Made by a program: the position numbers and the translations under genes. A stretch of 58,529 bases of DNA from Nitrososphaerota archaeon (GTDB lineage: Archaea; Thermoproteota; Nitrososphaeria; Conexivisphaerales; Conexivisphaeraceae): contig WALT01000001.1 of assembly GCA_015522695.1 (NCBI GenBank), positions 1-58,529 of the forward strand. Reading direction: 5' to 3'. Shown here one piece after another: positions 46,919 to 55,776 of this stretch. The notes beneath the pieces were generated by a model. It was not told where the DNA came from, did not search any database, and worked only from the letters and a program-made list of their open reading frames with translations. Numbering within the stretch: the stretch's first letter is position 1; the number at the start of each line of letters is the position of its first letter.

Positions 46919-47015
46919 CGGGCCGCCATTTGAAATCGATACATGATCCGTTTAAATGATATTACTGGATCGGAAAAACCTTAAGGGACTCCTCCCCGGG
47001 TCTGCTGGATGTGGC

Positions 47016-47384
47016 TTGCCGCTCAGTCAGCCCTTGTTGTCACTGATCGCGTATCTGTTGCTGGCCATCGAGGGTGGTATAGTCTCCATCCTTATACCTC
47101 TCTTGATAGCGCCTAGGATAAGAGGTCTTTTCAAGGAGGACAGGTTCGAGTGTGGTCAGACACCACCTCCTTATGGGAGGCGCAGGCTTGCGATGCAATA
47201 CTATCCGTTTCTCTTGGTCTTCCTCGTCTTCGATGCGGCTAGTTTCATCCTGTTCATGTGGGTTTATGTGAGCAGGGTTTACCCGATCTACTCGTTCCTG
47301 ATCTTCTCCACGCTCTTGTTCCTCCTACTTCCCCCCGTACTGCTCGTCAGGAAGTTGGCGGAGGATATAAGGCAGTGGTGGTAG
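47016..47384 (+). CDS. nuoA: NADH/F420H2-type quinone oxidoreductase subunit A
   Basis: The 122-residue protein (from TTG 47016) has three membrane helices, with the conserved RFECGQTPPPYGRRRLAMQY loop between helices 1 and 2 and FLLVFLVFDAASFILFMWVY in helix 2. The frame is open back to ATG 46956, but a TATA-like CGTTTAAAT at about 46948-46956 implies transcription starting near 46978, so the later TTG is preferred. Subunit A closes the quinone channel with H and J. The next gene starts 2 bases after its stop. Confidence 0.85.
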   Translation: MPLSQPLLSLIAYLLLAIEGGIVSILIPLLIAPRIRGLFKEDRFECGQTPPPYGRRRLAMQYYPFLLVFLVFDAASFILFMWVYVSRVYPIYSFLIFSTLLFLLLPPVLLVRKLAEDIRQWW

Positions 47385-47386
47385 GG

Positions 47387-48490
47387 ATGGATGCTCAAAC
47401 GAAGGACGTCAGGGATTCCGTCTCGTTTTGGCTGATAATATCGCTGGTTGTGATATTGATCATAGGCTGGGTGGTTGAGGGCGATGTGCTCATAGATTTT
47501 CTGGTGGACCTAGTCAGCGGTCCCCAGGTCCTGACGAACCCCCTCTTCCTATCCATAGTATTTCCTGGCCTGCTTTACGTGTCGATAGTGGCGGCTGTGG
47601 CGATATATGTTGAGAGGAAGATAGCGGCGAAGATACAGATAAGGATAGGCCCACAGTACGCAGGTAGGGTAGAGGGTATACTTCAAGTCGTGGCGGATGG
47701 AATAAAGATGGCAGCGAAGGAGTTCGTGATACCCAGGACGGTCGACGTCACCTTCTTCGTGGCGGCACCGATCCTCTCACTTACGGTCGGCATGTTATCG
47801 ATAACCGTCGTGCCATTTAGCCCTACGACCGTGATATTTCCCTTCCCCGTAAATCTGTTGCTGTTCTTCGCCATAGTGAGCTTCTTTCCGTTAACTGCAC
47901 TGCTTGCCGGGTGGGCCAGCAATAACAAGTTCTCGCTCATCGGTGCCGCTAGGGCGCTTTTCCAACAGGCCTCCTATGAGATCCCGATGTTGATATCGGC
48001 TTTGGCCCCTGCGCTGCTTGCCGGTTCCCTCAGGATAGAGGATATAGTGATGGCACAGAAGGACATGCCATTTCTATTTCCAGCGATACTCTCGGCCATA
48101 ATATTCCTGGCAGCTGCATTGGCCGAGACGGAGAAACATCCATTCGAAATTCCAGAGGCCGACAGCGAGATAGTGGCTGGATGGATGACGGAATATTCGA
48201 GCATGCCCTACACGCTCTTCATGCTCGCCGTTTACGTCAAGATGATATCGCTCTCCACACTATTCACGGATCTGTTCCTCTCCGGATGGCTGGGTCCAAT
48301 ATCGTTACCGCCAGAGGCCTGGACCGTCGTGAAGAGCTGGATAGTGTTGTTGATATTCTTAACCGTCAGGGCGTTGTTCCCGAGGATCAGAATCGATCAG
48401 ATGTTGAAGATGGGTTGGGGTTCCATGCTACTCCTATCGGTCGCAGGGCTGTTCTTGGCCATAGCGCTTGGGATGGTGGTTGGTCTATGA
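47387..48490 (+). CDS. nuoH: Complex I subunit H (quinone chamber)
   Basis: The 367-residue protein has eight membrane helices. Diagnostic segments: VAIYVERKIAAKIQIRIGPQ, YAGRVEGILQVVADGIKMAA, and the loop ETEKHPFEIPEADSEIVAGW with its line of acidic residues leading protons from the quinone site to the membrane arm. The ATG at 47387 is preferred: it follows the nuoA stop by 2 bases and matches the family N-terminus. It overlaps nuoJ by 4 bases (ATGA). Confidence 0.93.
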   Translation: MDAQTKDVRDSVSFWLIISLVVILIIGWVVEGDVLIDFLVDLVSGPQVLTNPLFLSIVFPGLLYVSIVAAVAIYVERKIAAKIQIRIGPQYAGRVEGILQVVADGIKMAAKEFVIPRTVDVTFFVAAPILSLTVGMLSITVVPFSPTTVIFPFPVNLLLFFAIVSFFPLTALLAGWASNNKFSLIGAARALFQQASYEIPMLISALAPALLAGSLRIEDIVMAQKDMPFLFPAILSAIIFLAAALAETEKHPFEIPEADSEIVAGWMTEYSSMPYTLFMLAVYVKMISLSTLFTDLFLSGWLGPISLPPEAWTVVKSWIVLLIFLTVRALFPRIRIDQMLKMGWGSMLLLSVAGLFLAIALGMVVGL

Positions 48491-48978
48491 TATTTCCTCC
48501 CGGTCCTCTGGATCCGATCATCATCTTCCTGGCGACCCTATCCGTGATGTCGGCGATCATCGCCCTGGAGTCTAGACAGATAGTCTACGGTGCGGTCTCG
48601 CTCATCGTCATGTTCCTGGGGATTTCAGCGATATTCCTCTACCTTGGAGGTCTATATCTGGGCGTCGTCCAGTTGGGCGTTTATGTCGGGGCAATCGGTG
48701 TTCTGATACTGTTCGCCGTCATCTTGGTCGGGGAGAGCAGGACGCCGGAGCCGAACGTGAACAGGATTATAGGTGCGACGGCTGCAATGATAGTCCTGGG
48801 TTCACTCCTCGTGGGGTTCACAGCCTTACAGATGCTGCCAGCACCCCATCATGTCGGGGCGCAGGAGCTCTCACGTATCGCCTCGAGGCTCATGAGGGAT
48901 TATGGCCTCGTGATAGTAGCCCTGGGCTCCCTCCTCGCCTCGACGGCCTTCGGTTCGGTGATGATAACGAGGAGATGA
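48487..48978 (+). CDS. nuoJ: Complex I subunit J
   Basis: The 163-residue protein has five membrane helices. The conserved helix 3, YLGGLYLGVVQLGVYVGAIG followed by VLILFAVILVGES, matches the (A/G)xxQxxVYVGAI(A/M)VLFLF signature of subunit J; its pi-bulge links quinone chemistry to proton transfer. The start ATG at 48487 overlaps the nuoH stop (ATGA). A longer reading from 48181 is unlikely, because its N-terminus is simply nuoH in another frame. Confidence 0.9.
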   Translation: MIFPPGPLDPIIIFLATLSVMSAIIALESRQIVYGAVSLIVMFLGISAIFLYLGGLYLGVVQLGVYVGAIGVLILFAVILVGESRTPEPNVNRIIGATAAMIVLGSLLVGFTALQMLPAPHHVGAQELSRIASRLMRDYGLVIVALGSLLASTAFGSVMITRR

Positions 48979-49295
48979 TGGTGATGGAGCTCAACCTGAT
49001 AATGGTATCCACACTCTCGATGATCCTGTTCGTCATCGGCGTTTACGGCCTGGTATCGAAGAGGAACTTGCTGCGTCTGATATTTTCGATCGAGATCATG
49101 ATAAACGCGGCCACGCTCAACTTTGTGGCGTTCGCCGCATATCTGGGCTCGAGCATGTCGGTGGCACAGATAGCAGGTGTGATCATAATAGCGTTGGCGG
49201 CCGCTGAGGCGGCAGCTGGACTGTCGTTGATACTCGAAGCGCACAGGCTACGTAAGGACGTCGTGGTCGATCAGCTGAGGGAGATGAAGGGGTGA
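48975..49295 (+). CDS. nuoK: Complex I subunit K
   Basis: The 106-residue, three-helix protein has the two conserved membrane Glu residues of this MrpC-like family: E40 in FSIEIMINAATLNFVAFAAY and E78 in IIIALAAAEAAAGLSLILEA. They carry protons laterally between the quinone module and the antiporter subunits. The ATG at 48975 overlaps the nuoJ stop; ATG 48984 is an alternative. The next gene, the first M-type subunit, begins 6 bases after its stop. Confidence 0.9.
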   Translation: MMVMELNLIMVSTLSMILFVIGVYGLVSKRNLLRLIFSIEIMINAATLNFVAFAAYLGSSMSVAQIAGVIIIALAAAEAAAGLSLILEAHRLRKDVVVDQLREMKG

Positions 49296-49301
49296 GCACA
49301 T

Positions 49302-50789
49302 TTGTTCCTGTTGGCCTCCGTGTTCATCCCGATAATAATCGCATTGGTCCTATTCGCGACTGGGACCAAAGACAAGGCCTTGGCCTCCTGGGGTGGAACG
49401 GGAGCAGCCCTAGCGTCGTTCGCGCTCCTGCTGGCATCTAGCATCTTCAGCGGGATCCTGTCCTACGGCAAAAGGATATCCTTGGAGGAGTATGGATGGT
49501 GGCCCTTGGGCCGAGCTGGGTTCGTGTTAGATGGCCTCACGCTGCCGTTCGCGTTGACGATATCGCTCCTGTCACTGGCGGTCTCCGTCTACTCATTGAG
49601 GTATATGGAGCACAGATTTGAAGAGATGGGGGTTAATTCCTGGGGCCTGTATTACGGCCTCTTGCTCTTCTATTACGCCGGCATGCTGGGTGCCGTCCTC
49701 TCCACGAACATAATAGAATTCTACATATTCTTCGAGGTAATGCTCATACCTTCCTACCTTCTCATAGCCGAGTATGGATATGGAGACAGGCAGCGAATAG
49801 CGCTCATGTATTTCATCTGGACACATGTCGGTGCTCTTGTGATGCTCGCCGGATTGCTTTACGTTGCCCTCTCCTCAGGCAGCTTCCATTATTCCGACCT
49901 GCTCTCCCTGGTGGCCGGTATGTCTCCGACTGCACAATTCTTCGCTGCGTTGGCGATAACGTTGGGCTTCCTCGTCAAGATGGCCGCCTTCGGGCTCCAC
50001 GTGTGGCTGCCCTATGCACATGCTGAGGCGCCAACGCCTGTGAGCGCGCTGTTATCGCCCGCGATGATAGGTATAGGCGGCTTCGGCATCATAAGATACG
50101 TGGAGGAGCTCCTACCACGTGGCTTTTCGCCCATAGCGTTCTGGCTCGCCCTTTGGGCCACGATCACCATGATCTACGCCGGGATAGTGGCACTGGCACA
50201 GGACGACATCAAGAGGCTCTTGGCCTATTCCAGCATCAGCCAAATGGGGTACATGATGATGGGCATCTCCTCGAATACCGCGATGGGCATAGCCGGATCG
50301 GTCTACCTCTACATAAGCCATGGTCTCAGCAAGGCCATCCTGTTCATGATAGCGGGCATCCTGATAATGCAATTCCATGGATTGAGGAGCATTCCAGCGT
50401 TCGGCGGCCTGGCCAAAAGGATGCCCCTGACCGCAACCCTGGCCCTCCTAGGATTCCTGGGCATAATGGGCGTCCCACCGACAGTGGGCTTCATATCAGA
50501 ATTCCTGGTATTCCTAGGTGCCTATACCTCGGCGCTCTCCGGTGGCATAGTTGGTGGGCTCGTGCTCGCAGGGGTGGCGCTGATCGCCACTTTATTGACG
50601 TGGGCATATGCACTGACGACGGTTAAGCGTCTATTCTTTGGACGATATAAAGAGGTCCACGGTGAAGCGCATGACCCTGGTGCAACAGTTCTGCTCCCGA
50701 TGTTCGCCTTGGCCTTCGTATCGTTACTTCTCGGCGTCTATCCGTTCTTGATCGATAGATTTCTTGAATGGTTGGGGATGGGATTATGA
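49302..50789 (+). CDS. nuoM: Complex I antiporter-like subunit M, first copy
   Basis: The 495-residue protein has about 14 helices. It carries Glu145 in EFYIFFEVMLIPSYLL and Lys226 in LGFLVKMAAFGLHVWLPYAH, followed by AEAPTPVSALLSPAMIG and LLAYSSISQMGYMMMGIS, and ends its second half with GFISEFLVFLGAY. The Glu in the last motif is typical of M subunits, where L and N have Lys. The start is TTG at 49302. A second M-type gene lies downstream of nuoL, so this complex has four antiporter-like channels instead of three. Confidence 0.9.
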   Translation: MFLLASVFIPIIIALVLFATGTKDKALASWGGTGAALASFALLLASSIFSGILSYGKRISLEEYGWWPLGRAGFVLDGLTLPFALTISLLSLAVSVYSLRYMEHRFEEMGVNSWGLYYGLLLFYYAGMLGAVLSTNIIEFYIFFEVMLIPSYLLIAEYGYGDRQRIALMYFIWTHVGALVMLAGLLYVALSSGSFHYSDLLSLVAGMSPTAQFFAALAITLGFLVKMAAFGLHVWLPYAHAEAPTPVSALLSPAMIGIGGFGIIRYVEELLPRGFSPIAFWLALWATITMIYAGIVALAQDDIKRLLAYSSISQMGYMMMGISSNTAMGIAGSVYLYISHGLSKAILFMIAGILIMQFHGLRSIPAFGGLAKRMPLTATLALLGFLGIMGVPPTVGFISEFLVFLGAYTSALSGGIVGGLVLAGVALIATLLTWAYALTTVKRLFFGRYKEVHGEAHDPGATVLLPMFALAFVSLLLGVYPFLIDRFLEWLGMGL

Positions 50790-52888
50790 TCGTCAGCACA
50801 ACCGGGCTGGCTTGGATACCGTGGGCCGTTTGGAGTCTGCCCGTGATAGGTGGGCTGCTCGCCCCGATCCTGGCCAAGATGGGGGACCGCATTAGAGATT
50901 GGGGCTCGGTGACGTTCGCCCTGATATCGGCGCTCCTGGCGACCTCGATGCTGTCATGGGCCCTGAGCGGGCAGACCGTCCACGATCAGGTAGGATGGTT
51001 CATGGGGCTCAAGGCAGGCGTCCTAGCGGACCCGCTGGCGGTACTCGTCTCAAACGTCGTCGCGTGGGTCAGCTTCTTCATAATGGTGTATAGCGTCGGC
51101 TATATGCATGGCGATCCTGGAATAGTCAGGTACTGGTTCTTCATGAACTTCTTCATCGGGAACATGCAATTGATAGTGCTATCCGATAACCTGTTCCAGC
51201 TGTTCTTCGGCTGGGAGGGCGTCGGATTATGCAGCTATGCCCTGATAGGTCACTGGTACACGGATGAGGAGGATAAATGGGTCGGCAGCCCTGATCACTA
51301 TGTGTGGGGACTTCCCCAGGCGTACTCCCCTAGCCATGCCGGGATGAAGGCGTTCATCATGACGAGGGCCGGGGACGTCGCCATGCTCGCGGGCATTTTC
51401 TTGATATTCGTCTATGCCAGAACTCTAACCTTCACTGATCTATCATCGAATATAACGTGGGCTAGGGCGATGCACAGCTCTGGACTGTTGCTGCCAGCCT
51501 TCTTGCTACTCCTCGGCGGGGCGATAGGAAAGTCGGCCCAATTCCCGCTCCACGAGTGGCTGCCGGATGCCATGGCTGGCCCGACGTCGGTCTCGGCGCT
51601 AATACATGCCGCCACCATGGTCAAGGCTGGAGTCTTCCTCATCGCAAGGCTGGCACCGATAGCTGCCGCCCTGTCGCTTCTGTTCCCCGAGCTTGAGGTC
51701 TTCTTCCTGACGGTGGCCGCCATAGGGGGCTTCACGGCGTTCCTAGCGGCAAGCCAGGCCCTCGTGTCCGTGGAGTTGAAGAAGGTTCTCGCCTATTCCA
51801 CAGTCTCGCAGATAGGATATATGTTTCTGGCGCTGGGGGCATCAGGTCTGTGGGCCCTGGGCGGTGGCATCACCGGCGCGATGTTCCATCTGCTCTCACA
51901 CGCCATGTTCAAGGCCGGATTGTTCCTCGTAGCGGGCTTCATCATACACGCGGTGGAGAGCCGGTTCATGACGGACATGGGAGGTCTAAGGAAGCACATG
52001 CCACAGTCGTTCCTCATGTTCTTGATACTCGCATTATCCCTAGCTGGTCTTCCGCCCCTGAGTGGTTTCTGGAGCAAGGATCTGATAATATCCGTATCGC
52101 TCGGCCCGGGAGGAGTCCTGGGCTTGATCCTAATGTTCAGTGGGGTCATAACAGCCCTCCTGACTGCGGCCTATAGCCTCAGGATGGTGGGCCTAACGTT
52201 CCTAGGTAAACCCAGTAGGAACGTCGAGCATCTGGAGGAGGAACATGTGCTGCGGGAGGCGCCGTTGACTATCAGGGTGCCCTATTGGGCGCTCGCCTTA
52301 GGCACGATAGCGGTAGGGCTTGCAGGTCCATTGATGGAGAACTCCATCGCCGCCTTCACCGAGGGCTATATCCATTTCTTGGGTGTTGGGGCGAATATCC
52401 TCGAGGTATCGCCCTCATGGTTGCCTCTGACATCCTCACTGAGCGCTGTCATAATAGGCCTGCTCGTAGCATATCCGTTCTACGCGAGCTTCTCTAGGAC
52501 CACACTTCCCTTCTCGAGGGGGATTTCGGGAGCTCTACAGCGGTTCCTCTGGAACCGCTGGTTCGTGAATGCCCTCTACTACAAGATATTCGTCATCCCA
52601 TGGCCCACGATAATCCGTTTAACCGATAAGTACGTCGAGAAGATGGTCTTCGACAATATAAACACGGTCATGTATCTCGCTGCTACAGGAATATCGAGGA
52701 TGGGGATATCCTTCGATACACGTGGAGTGGACGGCGTTGTGAACGCCGTCCCTGAGGGCGGCTCTAGCTCCTCAAATGTGGTGAGGAAGGCGAACACGGG
52801 CTCAGCTCGAACGTACATATACTCGATAGTGATCGGTCTATTATCGCTGGTCGTGCTCGTGACGGCGATATATCTGTGGGTGATCTAG
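50786..52888 (+). CDS. nuoL: Complex I antiporter-like subunit L
   Basis: The 700-residue protein has Glu144 in FFGWEGVGLCSYALIGHWY (the HWY ending is L-specific), LGGAIGKSAQFPLHEWLPDA followed by MAGPTSVSALIHAATMVKAG, and Lys431 in FWSKDLIISVSLG. The C-terminal part beyond about residue 560 should include the long lateral helix that runs along the neighbouring subunits (RFLWNRWFVNALYYKIFV) and a final anchor helix. At 700 residues it is longer than the roughly 610 of E. coli NuoL, which may matter if four antiporters must be spanned. ATG 50786 overlaps the stop of the preceding gene (ATGA). Confidence 0.92.
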   Translation: MIVSTTGLAWIPWAVWSLPVIGGLLAPILAKMGDRIRDWGSVTFALISALLATSMLSWALSGQTVHDQVGWFMGLKAGVLADPLAVLVSNVVAWVSFFIMVYSVGYMHGDPGIVRYWFFMNFFIGNMQLIVLSDNLFQLFFGWEGVGLCSYALIGHWYTDEEDKWVGSPDHYVWGLPQAYSPSHAGMKAFIMTRAGDVAMLAGIFLIFVYARTLTFTDLSSNITWARAMHSSGLLLPAFLLLLGGAIGKSAQFPLHEWLPDAMAGPTSVSALIHAATMVKAGVFLIARLAPIAAALSLLFPELEVFFLTVAAIGGFTAFLAASQALVSVELKKVLAYSTVSQIGYMFLALGASGLWALGGGITGAMFHLLSHAMFKAGLFLVAGFIIHAVESRFMTDMGGLRKHMPQSFLMFLILALSLAGLPPLSGFWSKDLIISVSLGPGGVLGLILMFSGVITALLTAAYSLRMVGLTFLGKPSRNVEHLEEEHVLREAPLTIRVPYWALALGTIAVGLAGPLMENSIAAFTEGYIHFLGVGANILEVSPSWLPLTSSLSAVIIGLLVAYPFYASFSRTTLPFSRGISGALQRFLWNRWFVNALYYKIFVIPWPTIIRLTDKYVEKMVFDNINTVMYLAATGISRMGISFDTRGVDGVVNAVPEGGSSSSNVVRKANTGSARTYIYSIVIGLLSLVVLVTAIYLWVI

Positions 52889-54370
52889 ATGATAGTATCA
52901 TTACTGATATCGCTTCCCATAATCCTCGGACTTGCGGCGTATGCGACTGGTTTTGTCTCGAAGAGGTCGCCGAGGATCATCGGAACTGTTGGGAGCGGTT
53001 TAGTTGCGCTATTGGCGTTATATGCGTTCGCCATGAGCTGGACCCATTCCGGGATCGTCCTCGAGGAACGCTCGGAATGGATACCGGGCATCATATCCTA
53101 TCATGTCGGGCTGGATGGACTGAGCGCTCCCTTCGTGCTTCTGACGGCCGCCCTGACGTTCCTGGCGGCTTTATCGTCATATATCGAGATAGGATCGCAT
53201 GAAAAGGAATATTACTCATTACTCCTGTTATTCGAAGCCGCAGGGATCGGAGTATTCGCAACTTTGGATATGATATTGTTCTACTTCTTCTGGGAGGTTA
53301 CGCTGATACCGATGTTCTTCTTCATAGGGATCTGGGGCGGGCCACGGAGGAAGTACGCATCAATGAAGTTCCTGCTCTACACATTCACCGGGAGCTTGAT
53401 AATGTTGCTGGCGTTCCTAGGGATATACGCCCTCGGCCCCGTGAAGAGCTTCGATTTTCTAAAGCTCCTGGCGCACAAGGACCAACTTCCATTCTGGTTG
53501 CAGATATGGGCCTCGATAGGGATGTTGATAGGCTTCGGCGTCAAGCTTCCGATGTTTCCATTCCACACATGGCTTCCCGACGCACACGTCGAGGCTCCAT
53601 CGCCGATAAGCGTGATACTGGCCGGCGTCCTGCTGAAGATGGGAGGTTATGGATTCATACGGTTCAATCTACAACTGTTAACCCAAGCGGCCATACAGAT
53701 GGCCTGGGTGTATATAGTATTCGGCATCGTCACGATGTTCTATGGCGCCATAGTAGCCTTCATGCAGGACGATTTCAAGAGGATGGTCGCCCTGACGAGC
53801 ATCAACCACATGGGTTACGTGCTCCTCGGTGCCTTTGCAGGGTTGGCGGCGGCCGCCCTCAAGGTACACTCGACACATGCGCTGGAATATGGCATAGGAG
53901 GGGCCATATTCCAGATGTTCAACCATGGGTTCGCAATAGGTTTGATGTTCATAATGGCTGGTGTGTTGAAGCACTACGTCGGATCCAGGAACATCAGCCA
54001 AGTTAGAGGGCTGAGGTTCCTCACGCCGAAGACGTCCGCACTGCTGATCATGGGGGCCTTTGCGGCCATGGGTGTGCCCCTTTACAGCAGCTTTTTGAGC
54101 GAATTCATGGTGATAATGGCTGCGATATCCTTCAACTCGGTGCTCTGGGTCGCCGTGTTCGTGCCTGGCATAACGGCCGGCTATTATCTTTGGACGATCA
54201 GACGGATGGTGTTCACAGAGCCCGTGTCTGGGGCGAAGGCCATCGACATCAGATCATGGGAATTCGTGGCCCTCATCCTCTTCTTGATACCGCTGATGGT
54301 GTTGTTATTTGTGCCAGGCCTGGTGATGAACCCCATATACTCGTACGTGGCCTCGCTGGGGGTGGGCTGA
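52889..54370 (+). CDS. nuoM: Complex I antiporter-like subunit M, second copy
   Basis: The 493-residue protein has Glu136 in FYFFWEVTLIPMFFFIGIWG, GFGVKLPMFPFHTWLPDAHV followed by EAPSPISVILAGVLLKMGGY, MVALTSINHMGYVLLGAFAG and SSFLSEFMVIMAA with the M-type Glu. These match canonical bacterial NuoM (WLPDAHVEAP) more closely than the first copy does. It starts on the base after nuoL ends and overlaps nuoN by 1 base. Confidence 0.92.
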   Translation: MIVSLLISLPIILGLAAYATGFVSKRSPRIIGTVGSGLVALLALYAFAMSWTHSGIVLEERSEWIPGIISYHVGLDGLSAPFVLLTAALTFLAALSSYIEIGSHEKEYYSLLLLFEAAGIGVFATLDMILFYFFWEVTLIPMFFFIGIWGGPRRKYASMKFLLYTFTGSLIMLLAFLGIYALGPVKSFDFLKLLAHKDQLPFWLQIWASIGMLIGFGVKLPMFPFHTWLPDAHVEAPSPISVILAGVLLKMGGYGFIRFNLQLLTQAAIQMAWVYIVFGIVTMFYGAIVAFMQDDFKRMVALTSINHMGYVLLGAFAGLAAAALKVHSTHALEYGIGGAIFQMFNHGFAIGLMFIMAGVLKHYVGSRNISQVRGLRFLTPKTSALLIMGAFAAMGVPLYSSFLSEFMVIMAAISFNSVLWVAVFVPGITAGYYLWTIRRMVFTEPVSGAKAIDIRSWEFVALILFLIPLMVLLFVPGLVMNPIYSYVASLGVG

Positions 54371-55776
54371 TGATATCCGTGATCATAGCCCTTGTACTTC
54401 CCATGGTTTTGATGCCACTCCTCGTGTTGACGAGGAGACAAAGTGTGCTGCCCGAGGCCGTATCGACGTCCGCACTGATAGTCGCGGCCGTGCTGCTGAC
54501 ATCGGTGCCGAGCGGGGCTTATGGGAGTTTTCAGGTGGATATGTTGACCCGTTTCTTCGGCATAACGTTCTTGATAGTATCGTTGATAGCGGTCGTCGGA
54601 ACATATGGCCTCGAGTTCAACGGCGAGAAGCCCGTCTACTATTCGCTGATACTGGCCTCTACAACTGGAATGATACTCGTGGGTGCCACCAATGACATGC
54701 TGGGGCTTATAGTGTCGTGGGAGCTCATGACGATTCCAACCTATCTATTGGCCGGTTTTCTGAAGCACGACACCAGATCCAATGAGGCTGCGATCAAGTA
54801 CTTCCTTGCAGGCGCGATATCTTCGGCCATGATCCTCTATGGATTCTCCCTGGTATATGGGCTTACCGGGGAGACGAGGTTGAACGAGATCTTCGTGAAG
54901 ATGTCCAGGATGGCCTTCGCCCTCCAGCCGTTGGCGCTCATCAGCGGCCTTCTGATACTCTCCGGATTCGCCGTCAAGATGGCGATGGCCCCCTTTCATC
55001 TATGGCTGCCCGATACGCTGACCGGTGCTCCACCCACGGCGTCGGCGATAATAGCTGGAGGCACGAAGAGCGCTGGATTTGCCGCCGCCATCAGGGTCCT
55101 GATACTCGTGTATCTCACCTCCAGGGTATATTACCTCAGCAGCTCCTGGCCCCTATTGCTCGCCATAATGGCGACGATCACGATGACCTGGGGTAACCTC
55201 GCTGCGCTTACACAAAGGAATCTGGCGAGGATGCTGGCCTTCTCCAGTATAGGGCATGCAGGCTATATGCTGGTCGGTCTGGCCGTGCAGGGAACTCAGG
55301 GCGCCCTGCTGGGTGCCACAGGGCTCTTGTTGCACGTCCTCTTCCATGGGGTGATGAAGTCATCGGCGTTCGCCGGCGTCAGGATATTCGGGTACTCATA
55401 TGACGAGCTGTCGGGATTCGGTAGGCGAGCTCCGTTGCCATCGGCATTGATGGCGCTCATATTGTTCTCGCTTGCCGGTATGCCACCCTTCGCCGGCTTC
55501 TGGGGCAAGTTATACCTCTTCCTCGCTGCAATCCAAGCCGGCATGGCTTGGCTCGCCCTGGTCGGCTTCCTGAACAGCGCTCTCTCCCTGGGCTACTATG
55601 GCTATCTGGTCAAGATAATGTTCATGGATGAAGAGGATGGGAGGACCAGGGAGCCACGGATCGGCAGGGGTCCCCTGATTGCATTGATAATCGGCGGGGT
55701 TTTCATGATCATAGCTGGGCTATATCCAACGCCCGTGATCAATGCCGCCATAGCTGCGGCCAAGACTTTCATCTGA
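54370..55776 (+). CDS. nuoN: Complex I antiporter-like subunit N
   Basis: The 468-residue protein has Glu118 in LIVSWELMTIPTYLLAGFLK, the N-type SNEAAIKYFLAGAISSAMIL, GFAVKMAMAPFHLWLPDTLT followed by GAPPTASAIIAGGTKSAGFA, LARMLAFSSIGHAGYMLVG and Lys in GFWGKLYLFLAA. The correct start is ATG 54370, sharing its first base with the stop of the preceding gene; longer readings only translate that gene in another frame. It ends the membrane-arm operon. Confidence 0.92.
   Translation: MISVIIALVLPMVLMPLLVLTRRQSVLPEAVSTSALIVAAVLLTSVPSGAYGSFQVDMLTRFFGITFLIVSLIAVVGTYGLEFNGEKPVYYSLILASTTGMILVGATNDMLGLIVSWELMTIPTYLLAGFLKHDTRSNEAAIKYFLAGAISSAMILYGFSLVYGLTGETRLNEIFVKMSRMAFALQPLALISGLLILSGFAVKMAMAPFHLWLPDTLTGAPPTASAIIAGGTKSAGFAAAIRVLILVYLTSRVYYLSSSWPLLLAIMATITMTWGNLAALTQRNLARMLAFSSIGHAGYMLVGLAVQGTQGALLGATGLLLHVLFHGVMKSSAFAGVRIFGYSYDELSGFGRRAPLPSALMALILFSLAGMPPFAGFWGKLYLFLAAIQAGMAWLALVGFLNSALSLGYYGYLVKIMFMDEEDGRTREPRIGRGPLIALIIGGVFMIIAGLYPTPVINAAIAAAKTFI

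Follow-up and report, generated by a model that had tools for sequence, protein, structure and literature searches.

Complex I of the 2M kind, in which two NuoM-type subunits occur together, was reportedly described by Chadwick et al. in 2018 (cited in PMC7300363, PMC9038741 and PMC9040806). Complexes with an extra NuoM and a helix insertion have been published for both bacteria and archaea (PMC7300363, PMC9038741); the first-pass annotation of the DNA studied here was right that they are known from some bacteria, and too narrow in leaving out the archaea. The archaeal 2M examples without NuoEFG include the heterotrophic marine Thaumarchaeota (clade 2) and Ca. Angelarchaeales (PMC7300363, PMC9038741), and where archaeal complex I lacks NuoEFG, ferredoxin has been inferred as the donor (PMC9038741, PMC12533140). 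The NuoL helix insertion of the enlarged complex is given as about 26 residues (PMC9040806). That an additional proton is pumped by 2M complex I is a hypothesis of the literature.

The window analyzed here is a stretch of 58,529 nt from a Nitrososphaerota archaeon, whose genome of 1.31 Mb in 34 contigs is 95.5% complete. With a probability of about 0.9, we take one of its operons to encode the membrane half of a complex I of the 2M type, which has four antiporter-like subunits and is most likely fed by ferredoxin. Eight adjacent genes on the plus strand (46956 or 47016 to 55776) were each assigned to a subunit family from open reading frames, Pfam and NCBIfam, in the order A-H-J-K-M1-L-M2-N, which bears out the A-H-J-K-M-L-M-N first read from the letters. 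The nuoA gene (46956..47384; PF00507, 45 bits) may start at ATG 46956 (142 aa) or at TTG 47016 (122 aa), and the shorter version is nearer to the 121–125 aa or so of its relatives. It is followed by nuoH (47387..48490; 367 aa from ATG 47387, with the in-frame ORF start at 47258), which reached 314 bits with PF00146 and 322 bits, over the cut-off, with the NuoH model, by nuoJ (48487..48978; 163 aa from ATG 48487, ORF start at 48181; PF00499, 74 bits) and by nuoK (48975..49295; 106 aa; PF00420, 75 bits). The four full antiporter-like subunits are M1 (49302..50789; 495 aa, TTG start; NDH_I_M, 308 bits), NuoL (50768..52888; NDH_I_L, 473 bits), M2 (52889..54370; 493 aa; NDH_I_M, 449 bits) and NuoN (54370..55776; 468 aa from ATG 54370, ORF start at 54190; PF00361, 205 bits, and in the N clade of the trees). 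Both M scores are above the NDH_I_M cut-off of 263.8 bits. As in 2M complex I, a single nuo operon codes for two NuoM-type subunits as well as for NuoL and NuoN. The NuoL has 706 aa from 50768, or the 700 aa noticed earlier from 50786.

In the main tree (LG+C20 PMSF, 89 rows), M2 was placed with canonical NuoM (100/99), and M1 fell in one archaeal group (99/95, with two Geothermarchaeota rows left out). M2 is best classed as the canonical type, and M1 as a deep archaeal paralogue. A recent tandem duplication of nuoM in the window lineage was also considered and ruled out, as the AU test rejects an exclusive archaeal pair of M1 and M2 (p=4e-49). Each of the two M subunits had been credited with the key Glu and Lys residues. 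This holds for M2, in which the four key charged residues are all present. In M1, three of them are retained (TM5 Glu, TM7 Lys, TM12 Glu), and the position of TM8 Lys265 of E. coli NuoM is taken by a Gly, a replacement seen in 25 of the 31 rows labeled M1. Because M1 lacks the TM8 Lys, its proton conduction is putative, and the missing residue was counted against the reading with four pumps.

The lateral helix of NuoL, whose length the first-pass annotation had raised, proved to be long. Counted between two aligned anchors, F608 and Y683 of the window NuoL, it spans 76 residues, which is 23 to 30 more than the 46–53 residues in most three-antiporter operons and contains the insertion of about 26–28 residues that goes with 2M complex I. 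All untruncated NuoL proteins of four-antiporter operons examined have 75–76 residues between these anchors. In the AlphaFold2 model, the extended helix is continuous over residues 611–675 (65 residues, mean pLDDT 89), with pLDDT dropping to 52–70 around residues 651–690, near the helix end; Foldseek with this model led to NuoL chains of complex I. The helix is likewise long in L052, L162, L163, L177 and the first operon of L178, for which the search gave no more than three antiporter genes, and similar cases without a fourth pump have been reported (PMC9040806). The helix alone is therefore no proof of a fourth subunit, and its length was dropped as a strict criterion.

The first-pass annotation had listed none of the genes for B, C, D and I, and BLAST of the whole window agrees, the sole match to NuoI being an unrelated DHO_dh/Fer4 protein (1063–2379). 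Its claim that electron-transfer genes are absent does not stand, however, as the partner genes nuoB-I-C-D are located on another contig of the same genome (L008:8324–11104, on the 20 kb contig C34). They lie inside a ribosomal-protein cluster, between rpS9 and enolase/rpS2, with apparent mevalonate-pathway genes in the same cluster, the gene names on C34 being read from the sequences. NuoB and NuoD have one match each in the genome, both on this contig together with NuoI and NuoC, which gives the genome the NuoB, C, D and I of a NuoEFG-less, ferredoxin-type complex I. Four order-mates of family f2, namely G004, G007 (Centralia_MAG_53), G009 (DRTY1_bin.15) and G011 (YF1.bin89), have the B-I-C-D order close to the same neighbors, and also a separate A-H-J-K-M1-L-M2-N operon. 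Since the split over two loci is kept in all four, it is a conserved layout and not an assembly break.

The NuoD on C34 exceeds the NCBIfam NuoD cut-off PRK06075 (403 vs 360 bits) and has the equivalent of E. coli His224, with Val and Phe at the positions of Y277 and D329 of E. coli NuoCD. In the alignment, the canonical quinone-site Tyr and Asp were found neither in this NuoD nor in the archaeal relatives compared. As the protein passes PRK06075, these two residues were not taken as defining, and their non-conservation was counted against the main reading. In the NuoI ORFs L114, L120, L144, L132, L137, L139 and L136, a 4Fe-4S cysteine motif is interrupted by intein-like insertions that keep the reading frame; two sites are used, with both in L136, and Intein and LAGLIDADG domains were detected in the three that were scanned (L114, L136 and L137). 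The large NuoI of some relatives had been considered as fusions with a donor domain, which was ruled out in favor of inteins.

Could M1 stand outside complex I, as an Mrp-type antiporter or membrane hydrogenase subunit that sits in the operon by chance? In a PDB sequence search, M1 scored 169 bits against MbhH, nearly equal to its 175 bits against NuoM. However, the NuoM-type proteins, M1 and M2 included, form a single clade (100/99) in the 89-row tree, through which Mrp and Mbh are excluded, and the AU test, run for M1 against Hyf, rejects a grouping with these hydrogenase subunits (p=8.5e-5). The phylogeny of both copies that had been proposed as a check thus puts M1 inside NuoM and outside the Mrp and hydrogenase subunits. 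Where a nuo operon of family f1, f4 or f7 has just one M-type gene, that gene is of the M1 type, and a chance placement is very improbable. A profile search of the whole genome gave five PF00361 matches, all on the four antiporter genes of the window, which leaves no other antiporter-type complex for M1 to join. We give hardly any credence to a membrane arm that lacks a partner and is decaying or working as an ion antiporter. The hydrophilic-arm genes do not adjoin the window operon, as such an arm would have it, but the genome has them at another locus, syntenic with that of the four order-mates. The reading frames of the window operon are all uninterrupted, and L, M2 and N retain their key charged residues.

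The direction of electron flow has to be weighed in the same way. No match was obtained in the 95.5%-complete genome for NuoF (PF01512), COX1 (haem-copper oxidase) or CydA (cytochrome bd), while the positive controls matched. Four matches to POR_N (three over the cut-off) and seven to molybdopterin oxidoreductase were recovered. Eight of these proteins were scanned, only one of them being over a curated cut-off; two match alpha subunits of 2-oxoacid:ferredoxin oxidoreductase, and the remaining six match DMSO/thiosulfate-reductase or formate-dehydrogenase-like families. Ferredoxin is likely the electron donor of the window complex I, in what would be an anaerobic metabolism. Alternatively, the complex could run in reverse, with proton influx driving the reduction of ferredoxin from the quinone pool. 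Such a reverse mode has been suggested for the enlarged complex I of autotrophs, for Ca. Manganitrophaceae and for 2M bacteria (PMC9040806), and would agree with a complex for which no donor module was seen. It is unlikely here, as the 2-oxoacid:ferredoxin oxidoreductases are able to supply reduced ferredoxin, and several molybdopterin oxidoreductases could consume quinol. The first-pass annotation had suggested an enlarged complex I that takes its electrons from a donor other than NADH, and such a complex with four antiporters is favored by M1 in the M clade, the long helix and the failure to find NuoF. Of the two observations named in advance as refuting it, M1 grouping with Mrp or membrane hydrogenase subunits and a lateral helix of normal length, neither was made.

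From the gene content, homology and helix length observed, we infer the assembly, donor, acceptor and proton gain of a 12-subunit enzyme without NADH module, made of the eight window subunits and of NuoB, I, C and D from C34. The iron-sulfur clusters of NuoB/NuoI would take up the electrons, with reduced ferredoxin as their most likely source, and a membrane quinone would be reduced. The energy would travel through the antiporter-like subunits, namely N, the two M subunits and L, with the lengthened NuoL helix spanning the extra one, for a gain of perhaps about one proton per two electrons.

The relatives suggest how pump number and helix may have changed. In the NuoL tree, built with the helix columns removed, family f7, which is perhaps Nitrosopumilaceae, has one M and a short helix and branches as the sister group of f2 and the window together, within the starred clade of four-antiporter, long-helix proteins. 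By the simplest reading, M2 and the helix module were probably lost together in f7. At the f7 loci L054, L063, L065 and L066, complex I has a single M, of the M1 type. A sign test of M2 presence against helix length had only 3 independent pairs on starred branches and was for this reason unable to reach significance. By RpS2, the window genome is closer to G001/G002 (71–75%) than to f2 (58–62%); G001–G003 have a one-M complex I with a short helix, and the M1 of G001 joins that of f4 in the 89-row tree. A replacement in the G001–G003 lineage is likely.

Other arrangements were also met. The locus L052 (G020, family f5) has a helix of 77 with only three antiporter genes in the genome, and its family-mate L061 has a short one; the long helix of L052 is possibly a relic of a lost M2. 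In L185 (Rhizobium sp. Pop5 plasmid), the nuo operon has two MrpD-like subunits with M and N, which is the arrangement of the 'green complex I' of rhizobia. A run of five antiporter-like genes was seen on one MAG contig only, that of Ca. Geothermarchaeota CSMAG_1319 (L057/L150, JAUWBL010000039.1), coding for an M-like protein of 464 aa, an M1 of 502, L of 657, M2 of 492 and N of 469. Its NuoL helix has 103 residues between the anchors, two modules beyond the canonical one; the inserted part of the NuoL model is of low confidence, so the structure was not used as evidence. For five pumps, only Ca. Manganitrophaceae was found in the literature on enlarged complex I (PMC9040806). As a tentative reading, held at rather less than even odds, the window belongs to an anaerobic archaeon with a ferredoxin-driven four-pump complex I, and the antiporter number of archaeal complex I shifts stepwise, each step with one NuoL helix module of about 26 residues. 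The module might, as part of the same tentative scheme, have been lost with M2 in f7, gained once more in the five-subunit Ca. Geothermarchaeota and, in one f5 genome, retained although M2 is missing.

That neither NuoF nor an oxygen reductase was detected points to ferredoxin-driven pumping in an anaerobe, in which the redox energy may cover a fifth proton. Among the related lineages, the antiporter subunits number three, four or five and the helix lengths mostly match, which makes them a natural series in which the co-evolution of helix length and pump number can be tested.

The complex I of E. coli (NuoA-N) has the core subunits A-D and H-N in common with that of the window, but has three antiporter subunits, an NADH module and a helix 30 residues shorter between the anchors. 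Complex_I_3 of Ca. Manganitrophaceae is likewise enlarged by additional pump subunits, with a helix insert of 26 residues, and differs in its five pumps and in two MrpD-like subunits that replace NuoL (PMC9040806). The published archaeal 2M examples are like the window in the extra NuoM, the lack of NuoEFG (NuoF being the one searched here) and the NuoL extension of about 26 residues; they are described as aerobes, whereas no COX1 or CydA was found in the window genome, and the split over two loci sets the window genome apart from them. G004, G007, G009 and G011, which come closest to the window in the trees of M1, M2, L and N, have the gene order, the two-locus split and the helix length of the window, whose proteins form a sister branch to theirs. 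Judged by its genes, the window complex I is a further case of the published 2M kind and no new machine, ordinary in kind and of some interest in detail.
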